IMG/VR virus record: IMGVR_UViG_3300027851_000041
Coordinates: 1 to 48,615 of that record
Source: a virus
DNA: 48,615 bases
Strand: one strand, 5' to 3'
Shown here: one piece after another, positions 1,812 through 39,713 of the stretch
Layout: each line of letters begins with the position of its first letter
Position numbering within the stretch: the stretch's first letter is position 1
Translations under genes and position numbers: made by a program
Notes under the pieces: generated by a model
Told to the model about the DNA's origin: nothing
The model's input: only the letters and a program-made list of their open reading frames with translations
Databases searched by the model: none

Positions 1812-2290
1812 CACTTGCCCTCCGACGCGGCTTCAACCGGAGGCTTCCAGCCCAGCTTTACCATCTCCGCCACAAGATTGGATGTAGCCGGCAGCTGTGC
1901 AGTCGGCTTCGACTCGCTCGGCAGGTGGTGAGCCAGTTCGGGGAAGGCGTCGCGCACTTGTTTGACAGTCGTGAATACCTCGATGGCGGATGTGAGCTTC
2001 TTGCGGAAGTGACTCCAGGCTGCGGACTGCTGTACGAAAGGTTCCTTGACCTTTTCGAAGTCCGCGTCCCCGACGATAAACGTGCGGCCGCCTCCGCGCT
2101 CGTCGAAGTTGTATTCGTACCCAGTGCGCAGAGCCTTCGGAACCTTGCGGTAAACACGCCGAACATCGGCGGACATGGCGGCGTAGAGCGCCTCCTGAAG
2201 ATCGTCGCCAATCTTCTTGTAGTCGGGTTTGGGGATGTCCTGCATCACAGAACGGACGAACACGGAACGGATGTGGTTAGTGAGACGCAT
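1811..2290 (-). CDS. Nmad5-like (nucleotide modification associated) protein
   Basis: A 159-residue protein beginning MRLTNHIRSVFVRSVMQDIP. That opening, followed by a predicted helical DYKKI..DLQEALY segment, matches phage proteins I know as Nucleotide modification associated domain 5. The family was named by genomic association with modified-base systems; its biochemistry is not established. The ATG at 2290 follows AGGAGAAGA and is preferred over an upstream in-frame ATG that lacks a ribosome site. It overlaps the zinc-ribbon gene upstream by 14 bases. No base hydroxylase or glycosyltransferase is visible in the window, so modified DNA is only a possibility. Confidence 0.65.
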   Translation of the reverse strand: MRLTNHIRSVFVRSVMQDIPKPDYKKIGDDLQEALYAAMSADVRRVYRKVPKALRTGYEYNFDERGGGRTFIVGDADFEKVKEPFVQQSAAWSHFRKKLTSAIEVFTTVKQVRDAFPELAHHLPSESKPTAQLPATSNLVAEMVKLGWKPPVEAASEGK

Positions 2291-9740: not shown

Positions 9741-9774
9741 TTGGTTTTTCTTCTTTTTATGGCAACTTGTTTGG

Positions 9775-9848
9775 CCTGCCTGGTAGGAGTCGAACCCACA
9801 ACCCACGGTGTAGAAGACCGATGCTCTATCCAGTTGAGCTACAGGCAG
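9775..9848 (-). tRNA. tRNA-Arg (anticodon UCU)
   Basis: A full cloverleaf on the minus strand: 7-bp acceptor CTGCCTG/CAGGCAG, D-stem GCTC/GAGC, anticodon loop CTTCTAC giving UCU (reads AGA), T-loop TTCGACT. The 3' CCA is not encoded. AGA is a rare codon in G+C-rich hosts, so this probably supports phage codon needs. Confidence 0.9.
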
Positions 9849-9849
9849 G

Positions 9850-9924
9850 TGGCGCCCGACTACCGACTTGAACGGTACTCTGATGCTTACAAGGCAACTG
9901 CATCGCCATCTATGCTTGTCGGGC
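9850..9924 (-). tRNA. tRNA-Thr (anticodon UGU), CCA encoded
   Basis: A cloverleaf with acceptor GCCCGAC/GTCGGGC, D-stem GCAT/ATGC, anticodon loop CTTGTAA giving UGU (reads ACA), and T-arm TACCG/CGGTA with loop TTCAAGT. A discriminator G and encoded CCA follow. The anticodon stem has one U-U mismatch. It ends one base before tRNA-Arg, so both must be cut from one precursor. Confidence 0.85.
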
Positions 9925-36668: not shown

Positions 36669-36688
36669 TTTGGCGGCTGATGTTGCGG

Positions 36689-36717
36689 CTGTCCCTGTCC
36701 CTGTCCCTGTCCCTGTC
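36689..36717 (+). repeat. CTGTCC hexanucleotide repeat
   Basis: Nearly five perfect copies of CTGTCC in tandem immediately after the iteron-like array and before a terminator stem. No reading frame runs through it convincingly. It may be a slippage product or part of the origin-like region. Confidence 0.85.
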
Positions 36718-36771
36718 TTTTCTTTGTCCGCTTAATCAAACAGACAAAGAAAAGGCCACTTGTCGGTGGCC
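36717..36771 (-). terminator. Rho-independent terminator of the 80-residue gene
   Basis: On the minus strand: stem GGCCAC/GTGGCC (36771-36754) followed by TTTTCTTTGTC, seven bases after the stop codon. The T-rich run is itself one arm of a 12-bp inverted repeat (GACAAAGAAAAG 36743-36754 with CTTTTCTTTGTC 36717-36728), so the site could also stop plus-strand transcription. Confidence 0.8.
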
Positions 36772-36778
36772 TTGCTGC

Positions 36779-37021
36779 TTACTTGTGGGCAAGCAGCCAG
36801 TTTTTGGTCAGATACAGCCTCTGAGCAGCTTTGATCTGCTCGGCTGTACCTTCCCAGGTGCCCAATAGGCGTTCGGCTTGCTCCCTCACCTCTGCTCCTA
36901 CTTCACACCTTTGGATTCTGAGGTGTGAAGCCTCGTCTCGACTGAGGTTGAACTGCTTGCTTGCAGTCCAAACAAGTCTGTCTTCTGTCACCTCAAGGGG
37001 CGACTTGATATAGGTTTCCAT
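36779..37021 (-). CDS. 80-residue protein inside the control region
   Basis: Starts METYIKSPLEVTEDRLVWTA, then KQFNLSRDEASHLRIQRCEVGAEVREQAERLLGTWEGTAEQIKAAQRLYLTKNWLLAHK: helical and charged, with a possible helix-turn-helix around RDEASHLRIQR. ATG 37021 follows AGGAGGTGGGCT, a near-perfect ribosome site, and a strong terminator follows, so it is a self-contained unit. Lying next to the iteron-like array, it could encode a repeat-binding protein, but no family is recognised. Confidence 0.72.
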   Translation of the reverse strand: METYIKSPLEVTEDRLVWTASKQFNLSRDEASHLRIQRCEVGAEVREQAERLLGTWEGTAEQIKAAQRLYLTKNWLLAHK

Positions 37022-37050
37022 AGCCCACCTCCTGAAAATCTTGACAACCC

Positions 37051-37887
37051 TGCCAGCCATGACCCACTGCTTGAGTGGGCATGACTTCCAAGGCTGGAAA
37101 TTGGAGCTTGTCGAGGATGTTGCTTAGGTGTCATGGCTTTTGGCTTTCGTACTCGCTTCTGACCCTAGATTCACTATTCTGCCAATTTGGGATTGACTTA
37201 GAATCTGGCAACATCCTTGCTCCCTGGCAAGCGGGCGCAGTGATTCCCGATATGCCGGAATGTGTGCCTGCTCTCTTGCTTGCTCAGGGTTGAAATCACG
37301 GGCTTTCACCGGCTAAACCCCCACCTTCTAGGGATGCCCCTAGACCCTATCTGGCCACTGCTCAGCCTGGCTAACACGTTGAAGAGCCGTATTTCAAGGG
37401 CGACTCCGGCAAAGCTTGCGCCTTGCTTTCTCAGTCTCCGGCTTATCCTACACATTCAACGCTGCTGATTCCCATTTACGGAATCCGGGCGAAGCAGGCC
37501 TTTAGCCCAGACTACAGGCGGCCTTACTCACATCTTGCTTGGGTGTGGTTTGCTGCTCAGTTCAAAGGAATTGACGCTTCCAATGCTGAGCCTACGCTAC
37601 AGGTTCTTTGTTGTACCTTGCTGATGCTGAGTCTTGCCGGATTGCAGCCCGTTTCCCTTCTCGCTCTCGGCGAAACGTAAGACACACTGCTCTCGTTGAA
37701 GACTGGCCAGCTAACGCACGCTGCTAGGTTTGATGTCCGGCTTTGCGCCGGATCTGCTGCACGCTTTGTAACCTGTGCAAATCGTGGTTTTTGGCAACTT
37801 CCAGGCGTAACTTCTCCCTGGTCCGCGACCATAACCCGTTTTTTGCTATGCGCCGACATCGTGACTGGCGCATTACGCCTGATGTCG
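37051..37887. ncRNA. Candidate large structured RNA, or structured control DNA
   Basis: About 840 bases without a credible gene, unlike the packed coding arms. It contains many complementary pairs: CCAGCC/GGCTGG around CCCACT/AGTGGG (37053-37097); AGGATGTTGC/GCAACATCCT (37114 with 37208, 10 bp, 84 apart); CTTGC/GCAAG; TCTAGGG-ATGC-CCCTAGA (37327-37344); CGTTGAA/TTCAACG (37377 with 37455); GATTCC/GGAATC (37467-37485); GCTCAG/CTGAGC around GGAA/TTCC (37555-37591); TCCGGC/GCCGGA (37736-37752); CGACATC/GATGTCG around GGCG/CGCC (37854-37887). Nested and long-range stems resemble large phage RNAs such as GOLLD or ROOL in general character, but no match to either is claimed. Strand is not resolved. 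Confidence 0.45.
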
Positions 37888-37920
37888 TTAAATCCGAATT
37901 GTGTTCGATGATGGTCTCTG

Positions 37921-38004
37921 CTGCTGCGTCGGCTGCTGCGTCGGCTGCTGCGTCGGCTGCTGCGTCGGCTGCTGCGTCGGCTGCTGCGTCGGCTGCTGCG
38001 TCGG
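37921..38004 (+). repeat. 12-bp tandem repeat, seven perfect copies
   Basis: CTGCTGCGTCGG repeated seven times without a mismatch. Plus frame would give Ala/Ser runs and minus frame Ser/Arg runs, but neither has a credible start or upstream coding sequence. It lies at the right edge of the structured segment. Confidence 0.9.
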
Positions 38005-38269
38005 CTGCAAATTGTTAATGAACGTGATATGTCACGTGAATACAAGCATTGTTTCCCATTGCGCCACCTGAAAACATGCCGGCATCCGGCCTCGTTTCTT
38101 TCCGCTATCCTGAATTGCCACCATGTTGCAGGGCTTGCGCTTTCTTATGTCCTAAAGACAAGGGCTTGCCTTACTAGCCGTGCTCTCTGCTTTGGATGCT
38201 CTAGGCCGTGTTGCTGGTCTAGCTACAGTGCATTGCGCATGGGTTTCGGGCTACCGTGCAAAGTATCCT

Positions 38270-38322
38270 GCGCCACCATTGGCGCGCATGCTGGCGAGCA
38301 TGCGCACCGATGGCGGAGGCGC
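38270..38322. repeat. Imperfect 53-base palindrome
   Basis: A perfect core GCGCATGCT-GGCG-AGCATGCGC (38284-38305) extended outward by CC/GG, CCAT/ATGG and GCGCC/GGCGC with small mismatches. It is the first of three large palindromes within 190 bases. Purpose unknown: RNA hairpin, protein-binding site or cruciform. Confidence 0.75.
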
Positions 38323-38377
38323 GAATAACAGGCCGTGACCACAACGTGATCACGGCAAAACGAGGCGAGTTTTTAAA

Positions 38378-38453
38378 GATCAGGGTTAGCCACTGTATAT
38401 TTATACAGTGGCTAAGCCTGATCACACTGGCATGCTATGCGCATGCCAGTGTG
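38378..38453. repeat. Two abutting long palindromes
   Basis: First, GATCAGG-g-TTAGCCACTGTATA-TT and its mirror to 38423: 21 of 22 arm pairs match. Second, CACACTGGCATGC/GCATGCCAGTGTG (38423-38453), a 13-bp perfect stem with a 5-base loop. They share a base and lie five bases beyond the stop of the alanine-tail gene. They may act as a bidirectional terminator or a DNA site; there is no U-tract. Confidence 0.8.
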
Positions 38454-38458
38454 TGGCG

Positions 38459-39220
38459 TTACGCTGTTACCGCTTTGCGCTGGCGCTGGCGCTTAGCAGG
38501 CTTAGCCGGCGCTTCTGCTGCCGCTGCCGCTTCTGCCGCTGCCGCTTCTGCCGCTGCCGCTTCTGCCGCTGCCGCTTCTGCCGCTGCCGCTTCTGCCGCT
38601 TCTGCCGCTTCTGCCGCTGCCGCTTCTGCCGCGTCGGCGTCGGCGTCGGCATCGGCCATGCTGGCAATGGCTTGCGCTAATGCCTGCACAATCGCTTGCG
38701 CCTGCGCCTGAGCATCTTCCAATGTGGCGCGATCAGCCGATGCGGTCTTCTTTGCGAAGGTTTCCCATGAGACCTTCAGGAAGTCGAAGGGTCCCGCCTT
38801 TTCTCCAGCCGGCGCAGGGGCGAAAACCGACATGGTTGCAGTGGTCACGTTAGCCGCGACCGCTTCGATGGCGGTCTTGCGTGCTGCGATGTCTTGGCAC
38901 TTGCGGCTATTGCCACCGATGTACCCTGCAACCGTGGTGAAACCAAAGCCCTTGTTAGTGCATGCGACGTGACCCCATGCACCGATGGCGGACCAGTCCG
39001 CCGTGCGGATTGCCTTGCGCAGTTTGCCGGCAATGGCGCTCTTGCCACTGGCATGCACGGCGGACAACAGTTGGTTGAAGGCGTCGGCGCCTTCAACCAA
39101 CTGCGCCGTTAGAGCGTTTGCGACAGAATCGGCGAGGAAAGCCGCCATTGTGGTGGCGCGGTCGTCACGGCCGGCAGTCATTGCAGCAAGGGCAGCACGG
39201 AAAGATTTGATGTTAAACAT
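38459..39220 (-). CDS. Protein with alanine-rich repeat tail
   Basis: A 253-residue protein. Residues 1-170 form a globular, mostly helical domain (MFNIKSFRAALAAMTAGRDD..., AIAGKLRKAIRTADWSAIGAW, GYIGGNSRKCQDIAARKTAI). From about 180 it turns into an alanine-dominated helix, with a five-residue E-A-A-A-A unit repeated in the tail (15-bp DNA repeats, about 38510-38635), and ends in basic PAKPAKRQRQRKAVTA, like the tails of histone-H1-type proteins. ATG 39220 follows GGAGTTTTCGCC. It may bind DNA near the control region; no family is recognised. Confidence 0.75.
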   Translation of the reverse strand: MFNIKSFRAALAAMTAGRDDRATTMAAFLADSVANALTAQLVEGADAFNQLLSAVHASGKSAIAGKLRKAIRTADWSAIGAWGHVACTNKGFGFTTVAGYIGGNSRKCQDIAARKTAIEAVAANVTTATMSVFAPAPAGEKAGPFDFLKVSWETFAKKTASADRATLEDAQAQAQAIVQALAQAIASMADADADADAAEAAAAEAAEAAEAAAAEAAAAEAAAAEAAAAEAAAAAEAPAKPAKRQRQRKAVTA

Positions 39221-39713
39221 GGCGAAAACTCCGAAAAAGAAGCCGGAAAAGCCCGGCGGCACAGACTTAAAGCATTTCGTATGCCAGTTTTAAAACAACT
39301 AATAGAATCAAAGGCTTAGCAGAATCGGCCTGGCGAAGCCTTGCCGTAACTGTAAAGTTTTCCGACACAACATTCACCTAAGTATCTGTTTTATATGGGT
39401 TTGCGTTAATCGCTCGTTTGTCGGAAAACTTTACACCATAACATGTTGATTTTCCGATGTTTTATATACCGCAGCCTGCAATAGTGTCGGAATTTTTTAC
39501 AGTGCCGTTTTCGGGTTGGACCCGGTTTAGGCTTTTGTCATGCACTGCGCTTTATACCTTTGGCATGTCCGAATTATGCGCATTGGTTTCTAGGCATGAC
39601 GGGGCAGCTTTTCTGCCCAGGCTGGCGACGGGGGTGCCAACCTGGCCCCCAAAAAATCCGCCAGCACTTTCGAAACTTTGTATGCTATAGTTAAAACACA
39701 CAAGGAGAAAAAG
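39221..39713. promoter_or_regulatory. Divergent control segment with three 17-bp elements
   Basis: About 490 bases without a gene. TGTAAAGTTTTCCGACA (39351-39367) recurs as its exact reverse complement at 39419-39435 and with three changes at 39485-39501; a partial TTTTCCGATG lies between. A 7-bp stem AAGGCTT/AAGCCTT (39311-39342) precedes them. The elements lie between two divergent genes and look like operators for a phage regulator. From 39510 to 39660 nothing further is evident. Confidence 0.7.
39683..39691 (+). promoter_or_regulatory. Extended -10 promoter for the plus-strand regulator gene
   Basis: TGCTATAGT, an extended -10 with a near-consensus hexamer at 39686-39691; no good -35 is seen, as is common for extended -10 promoters. 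Predicted start near 39698, about 16 bases before the ATG, leaving room for the AAGGAGAAAA ribosome site. Confidence 0.55.

Follow-up and report, generated by a model that had tools for sequence, protein, structure and literature searches.

What is encoded in the stretch of about 1.4 kb, at 37,051-38,453, that a first-pass annotation of this phage DNA picked out as gene-free and rich in stems, and for which it proposed an undescribed large RNA or a DNA control element? The window, by which we mean the whole 48,615-nt stretch of DNA that was analysed (IMG/VR virus record IMGVR_UViG_3300027851_000041), does lack a gene here. With a codon-usage model trained on 18 long window genes, every ORF of at least 60 aa inside 37,061-38,458, on either strand, has a codon log-odds between -0.37 and -0.06. 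The two minus-strand genes that flank the segment, at 36,779-37,060 and 38,459-39,262, score 0.14 and 0.22, the training genes themselves mostly 0.2-0.45, and wrong-frame ORFs have a mean of -0.20. Since all of the inner ORFs are negative and both neighbours positive, the segment is best read as gene-free on both strands from about 37,022 to 38,458, as had been claimed. The proposed RNA and its neighbours are arranged as follows.

38,459-39,262, minus strand: upstream neighbour gene, 267 aa, repeat-rich, without a family match.
37,050-38,335, minus strand: proposed large noncoding RNA with the L1-stalk mimic, without a coding ORF, co-directional with its neighbours and with putative ends.
36,779-37,021 (ORF to 37,060), minus strand: downstream neighbour gene, 80 aa, with an ATG start and AGGAGG upstream, without a family match.

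No relatives of the downstream neighbour's protein were found. Over the proposed RNA the AT skew is -0.24 on the plus strand, that is, the minus strand is A-rich. We infer that the minus strand here gives rise to a noncoding RNA, some 1.0-1.3 kb long, which would be transcribed across most of the gene-free stretch.

An Rfam scan of the whole window matched, besides a tRNA, only a fragment of the LSU model RF02541, at positions 2127-2214 (minus strand 37,376-37,462, 54.6 bits, E 1.4e-13); the LSU match in the whole record is confined to these positions and no other 23S rRNA was found there. In ribosomes the head formed by H77 and H78 of this region is the binding site of protein L1 (PMC5309774). 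The reading of minus 37,375-37,465 as a copy of the 23S L1-stalk head is well supported by sequence comparison, and the mimic, whose strand agrees with both flanking genes, has the following predicted parts.

37,375-37,465, minus strand: L1-stalk mimic (23S H76-H78), from Rfam, blastn, a covariance model and covariation.
37,443-37,439 with 37,389-37,385, minus strand: mimic H76.
37,436-37,434 with 37,404-37,402, minus strand: mimic H77.
37,426-37,422 with 37,413-37,409, minus strand: mimic H78.
37,460-37,455 with 37,383-37,378, minus strand: extra closing stem of the mimic, GUUGAA/UUCAAC.

A covariance model (R3) for which 15 of the other phage copies were used and the window was left out has the mimic as its sole match in the window (70.9 bits, E 1.6e-15). 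On alignment with E. coli 23S rRNA, the start of the core falls at T2113 and its length is 62 nt in both, and in H76 all five pairs are kept while most are replaced, E. coli GGUGG/CCACC standing against AGCCG/CGGCU in the window. By blastn to plasmid-borne sequences and 23S genes, 67-75 nt were matched, covering the L1-stalk piece only. The homologues of the whole segment that the first-pass annotation looked to in related phages were not found by blastn, plasmids matching the L1-stalk piece alone, and phage and plasmid blastn likewise returned no homologue of the ~1.2 kb of this RNA that lie outside the mimic.

The same module recurs in other viruses. Pattern scans of IMG/VR combined with covariance scoring, to which one later pattern scan added none, gave 18 further contigs of 3.9-413 kb with isolated mimic copies (L003, L004, L005, L023, L024, L025, L027, L030, L033, L036, L163, L165, L166, L168, L169, L170, L171 and L172), and thus 19 phage contigs including the window. 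The mimic-bearing contigs are metagenomic, and near relatives among the copies are L024/L025, L004/L163, L165/L166 and L169/L171. As the viral search used exact patterns, the 19 copies are a lower bound and biased to conserved ones. Eleven records searched whole with model R1 hold one copy each, a second match in one record being at noise level (17 bits). LSU searches of the mimic-bearing records returned nothing, or only about positions 2126-2215, so these records are not 23S genes; L006, found by the identical patterns, is a real 23S gene and was used as contrast. Among 50,697 records no cultured phage with the module was found, at the sensitivity of blastn and with the queries used, and the L1 module is absent from 12 terminase relatives.

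Several other matches were set aside. L026, L028, L029, L031, L032, L034, L035, L164 and L167 are chance pattern matches, and module matches in INPHARED look like 23S sequences in phage records, many of them so annotated, and are not mimics. The match in Paenibacillus phage Pd_22F (L156) belongs to a complete 23S-5S operon in that record; the operon lies between phage-like genes and is probably host sequence. Matches of L170 to Streptomyces and Microbacterium phages cover an adjoining tRNA-like piece without the L1 module, and those from a pattern scan of genome contigs are ordinary 23S genes, mostly of Bacteroidota and Alphaproteobacteria.

Covariation across these copies indicates that the module is maintained as RNA. 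In 16 distinct copies aligned to the H76-H77-H78 structure and compared with 500 shuffles, standard pairs fill 97.1% of helix cells (shuffles 65%), changes on both sides occur in 66 cells (shuffles 20) and at 11 of the 13 pairs, and the covariation score is 0.860 against 0.207+/-0.035, with 0/500 shuffles as high. Pairing falls to 32-53% when the partner is slid by 1-3 columns. In H76 all five pairs are 100% paired, each with variation on both sides. Invariant letters of the core between the helices are TAGGATA, GAG, GGAG, TG and ATA; this invariance is partly built in for those letters that the search patterns demanded. Apart from the GAG and GGAG ends, the patterns placed no constraint on the helix pairs, and their covariation is not built in. 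Judged by these alignments, the mimic is neither a pseudogene nor a chimera but a conserved RNA domain. At L169:634-724 and L171:6495-6585 the core reads AAAAGTGGAATA in place of CCTTGAAATA, and may form a divergent subtype.

In the model that we propose, host uL1 is captured by a large noncoding RNA of the phage through the L1-stalk head copied in it. Captured uL1 would be kept off ribosomes and off its autoregulatory mRNA or, alternatively, would serve as an anchor by which a phage ribonucleoprotein is built or the RNA is placed on or near ribosomes; in either case translation would be tuned to the phage's benefit. No uL1 (Ribosomal_L1) gene was found in 18 of the mimic-bearing contigs, so any bound uL1 would be the host's. 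Furthermore, the neighbours in the window are without a family match, and with no Ribosomal_L1 gene on these 18 contigs this is not the setting of a ribosomal-protein operon. As the uL1-binding core is kept, no phage uL1 is present and some other large RNAs contact ribosomal proteins or ribosomes, capture of uL1 is the most economical explanation, and we consider it probable, without great confidence, that the minus-strand RNA acts in this way, by sequestration or by anchoring. Binding itself would follow from the conserved core, and what capture brings about (sequestration, loss of autoregulation or ribosome anchoring) would follow in turn from the binding.

The surroundings of the copies differ. 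Noncoding sequence, at most about 2 kb of it, surrounds most of them, and tRNA arrays are a frequent setting. The noncoding stretch measures roughly 1.4 kb in the window, 1.0 kb in L030 and 0.5 kb in L023, and the L036 mimic sits in about 1.9 kb of noncoding sequence between two tRNA genes. The L169/L171 mimic lies 24 nt past a coding sequence. Given the shorter stretch in L023 and the 24-nt gene distance in L169/L171, a large size may be of no importance to the RNA, and the contexts are not alike. In L004, L163, L024 and L025 the noncoding sequence around the mimic is conserved over about 430-560 nt; helices of long range close it, and some two-sided changes are seen outside the mimic (four sequences, two nearly identical). 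GGAARCGTACAGCA occurs twice in each of these RNAs (L024:4030-4564 for L024), and each copy makes up the 5' strand of a long-range closing stem in the predicted fold. L170 has a promoter-like TTGACA-17-TAAGAT about 135 nt upstream of the mimic on the mimic's strand; this points to a stand-alone RNA, although such matches are not in themselves a sign of function. In its tRNA-rich region (L170:5500-7030) one strand carries several promoter-like stretches that are nearly identical (AAATTGACAA.CAAATGGTTAAGTAGTAA..), as though a separate small noncoding RNA were transcribed from each, the one with the mimic among them. Outside the module, similarity across phages is limited to close relatives and to one ~30-nt element shared by L004 and L030. 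L004:860-950 (minus) and L030:6450-6600 have ATGGTARAGRYGTATTCCAGACCACAAACAAA in common, followed in L030 by the motif TATAGTGGTA; the element precedes the mimic in L004 and follows it in L030, the RNAs being otherwise dissimilar, as if RNA modules had been shuffled.

These contexts bear on the possibility that the module is a cis-acting operator, placed in the leader or 3' region of an mRNA so that free uL1 controls a neighbouring phage gene. A precedent exists in L1, which autoregulates its own operon through an rRNA-like site in the mRNA. Papers on this autoregulation are cited in a review (PMC10931766). The window mimic is followed, at a distance of about 350 nt, by a gene that has a Shine-Dalgarno sequence; in L023 a following gene start is about 120 nt from the start of the core and, as described above, a gene ends just before the L169/L171 mimic. 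There is, however, no neighbour common to the copies, tRNAs being next in L004, L024 and L163, noncoding sequence in L170 and L036, and various genes in the others; in the window, moreover, the 350 nt to the next start codon argues against such control. We regard a cis-acting operator as unlikely.

Capture of uL1 must also be weighed against the binding of tRNA, as the double T-loop head might hold tRNAs by the elbow and serve the phage's tRNA genes. The window mimic retains G2112 and A2169, the two bases that stack on the tRNA elbow, and many of the copies are found within tRNA arrays. Indeed, the double T-loop module is common to the L1 stalk, RNase P and the T-box (PMC5309774). Across the phage copies, however, G2112-A2169 is less conserved than the other core positions (G in 14/19 copies, A in 15/19), and the two tRNA genes of the window, at 9,772-9,924, are far from the mimic. 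Most of the core is thus more tightly conserved than the surface that contacts tRNA, which may reflect selection for protein binding. A role in holding tRNAs seems to us rather improbable.

A further reading takes the segment as a DNA control element (a replication origin, a packaging site or a recombination site) with no functional RNA. The first-pass annotation had argued from stems, repeats and palindromes, all of which are present in the sequence: the 10-bp stem 37,114-37,123/37,208-37,217, the nested arms and the hairpin at 37,327-37,344; the 12-bp unit GGCTGCTGCGTC, repeated about seven times at about 37,922-38,008 and probably a low-complexity insertion; and large palindromes at 38,386-38,415 and 38,423-38,453 (13-bp stems), with a third such stretch at about 38,266-38,327. 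Three different short tandem repeats occur in the neighbourhood, at 36,680-36,720, 37,922-38,008 and 38,515-38,645, one of them inside the 267-aa upstream gene. The structured features outside the mimic are the following.

38,266-38,455, no strand assigned: strong palindrome cluster, between the RNA and the upstream gene, terminator-like or a DNA element.
37,114-37,217, minus strand: domain closed by the 10-bp stem in predicted minimum-energy and centroid folds.
37,056-37,101, minus strand: strong predicted hairpin CCAGCC...GGCUGG with inner CCCACU/AGUGGG, the proposed 3' end of the RNA.

Richness in stems beyond chance, counted against dinucleotide shuffles, held only in part. Stems of at least 8 bp with a span below 150 number 8 in 37,051-38,453 against a shuffle mean of 1.5, and 3 against 1.5 (shuffle maximum 3) without the palindromes that follow 38,240, in which case only the rare 10-bp stem, with 0.13 expected in shuffles, still stands out. 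The folding energy of 960 nt is weakly better than that of shuffles for either strand (minus z -1.95, plus z -1.50), and neither it nor the energies in sliding windows tells the strands strongly apart. As most of the stem excess comes from the palindromes and the energies are only slightly better than shuffled, the argument from stems is weak when taken alone. The region's strongest fold signal is the palindrome cluster (z about -10 on both strands), within which there is one terminator-like match on the minus strand at 38,356-38,332. The plus strand had been favoured on account of a G-U pair in the helix 37,165-37,172/37,201-37,208; the pair exists, but this lone wobble is outweighed by the 23S-like module on the minus strand. 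The undescribed phage RNA proposed in the first-pass annotation is thus supported, on the opposite strand, by the L1-stalk copy and the covariation across phages, which had not been seen at the time. The strong palindromes and tandem repeat at 37,922-38,455 would suit a DNA element, which could fit the palindromic end alone and leaves the L1-stalk module unexplained; as an account of the segment we think it very improbable. Least credible of all is a functionless remnant, either a decayed or captured fragment of host 23S or an assembly chimera, which the clear resemblance to 23S rRNA might recommend but which does not fit the compensatory changes in all five H76 pairs, the invariant core, boundaries that are equal in all copies with no other 23S sequence, or a window H76 unlike the 23S stems seen in this analysis.

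Returning to capture of uL1, a second possible contact with the ribosome lies in the same RNA. The 15 nt at minus 37,562-37,576, CGUCAAUUCCUUUGA (CGTCAATTCCTTTGA), are the exact complement of a near-universal stretch of 16S rRNA around 910-925, and sit inside a stem-loop closed by GCTCAG/CTGAGC. A match this long to 16S or 23S rRNA arose in 21 of 3000 shuffles, which is rarer than chance, but the find is post hoc and the complement is not common to the other phage RNAs; an antisense contact with 16S rRNA is suggestive only. That several phage lineages deploy trans-acting L1-stalk RNAs which capture uL1 and engage or reprogramme host ribosomes, the 16S complement perhaps adding a contact, is in our judgement an even call.

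We found no Rfam family for an L1-stalk mimic in phage RNA, and no paper describing one among open-licence publications. We know of no function assigned so far to large phage RNAs such as GOLLD and ROOL, and a ribosomal-protein site inside such RNAs would supply a directly testable one, uL1 capture or ribosome docking. If true, this would be an undescribed RNA-based way for phages to engage the host protein-making machinery through a viral RNA that mimics rRNA, and to our knowledge the first case of a virus that takes over its host with the help of a copied piece of rRNA. The module (model R2, alignment A4) also provides a sequence handle for large phage RNAs that have no similarity to one another.

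Comparison with the Rfam models of GOLLD, ROOL and OLE, to which the segment had been likened in size or kind, gave no match in the window, and the other mimic loci scanned hold no GOLLD or ROOL match. GOLLD and ROOL are often, though not universally, found near tRNA arrays and form homo-oligomeric cages. Our RNAs resemble them as large phage noncoding RNAs and, in many of the other mimic-bearing phages, in their proximity to tRNA arrays, and differ in having no Rfam match and, for the window mimic, in not being near a tRNA array. Binding of GOLLD to ribosomes has been reported from pull-downs, according to a citation in PMC12286853, where the term 'L1 stalk' does not appear. OLE RNA, also a large noncoding RNA, binds ribosomal protein bS21 (PMC12054373) and so offers a precedent for binding a ribosomal protein, although OLE is cellular and the protein a different one. 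The L1 stalk of 23S rRNA itself (RF02541, about 2126-2215) shares with the phage copies H76-H77-H78, the invariant core letters, G2116, G2168 and A2171-A2173, whereas the phage copy is isolated from the remaining 23S inside unrelated phage noncoding sequence, has a rewritten H76, and carries its own outer closing stem in place of the H75/H79 junction. Finally, ribosomal-protein leaders such as that of the L11-L1 operon likewise imitate an rRNA site to catch a ribosomal protein; in contrast, the RNAs described here are phage-encoded, are accompanied by no phage uL1 gene and copy the whole stalk head.
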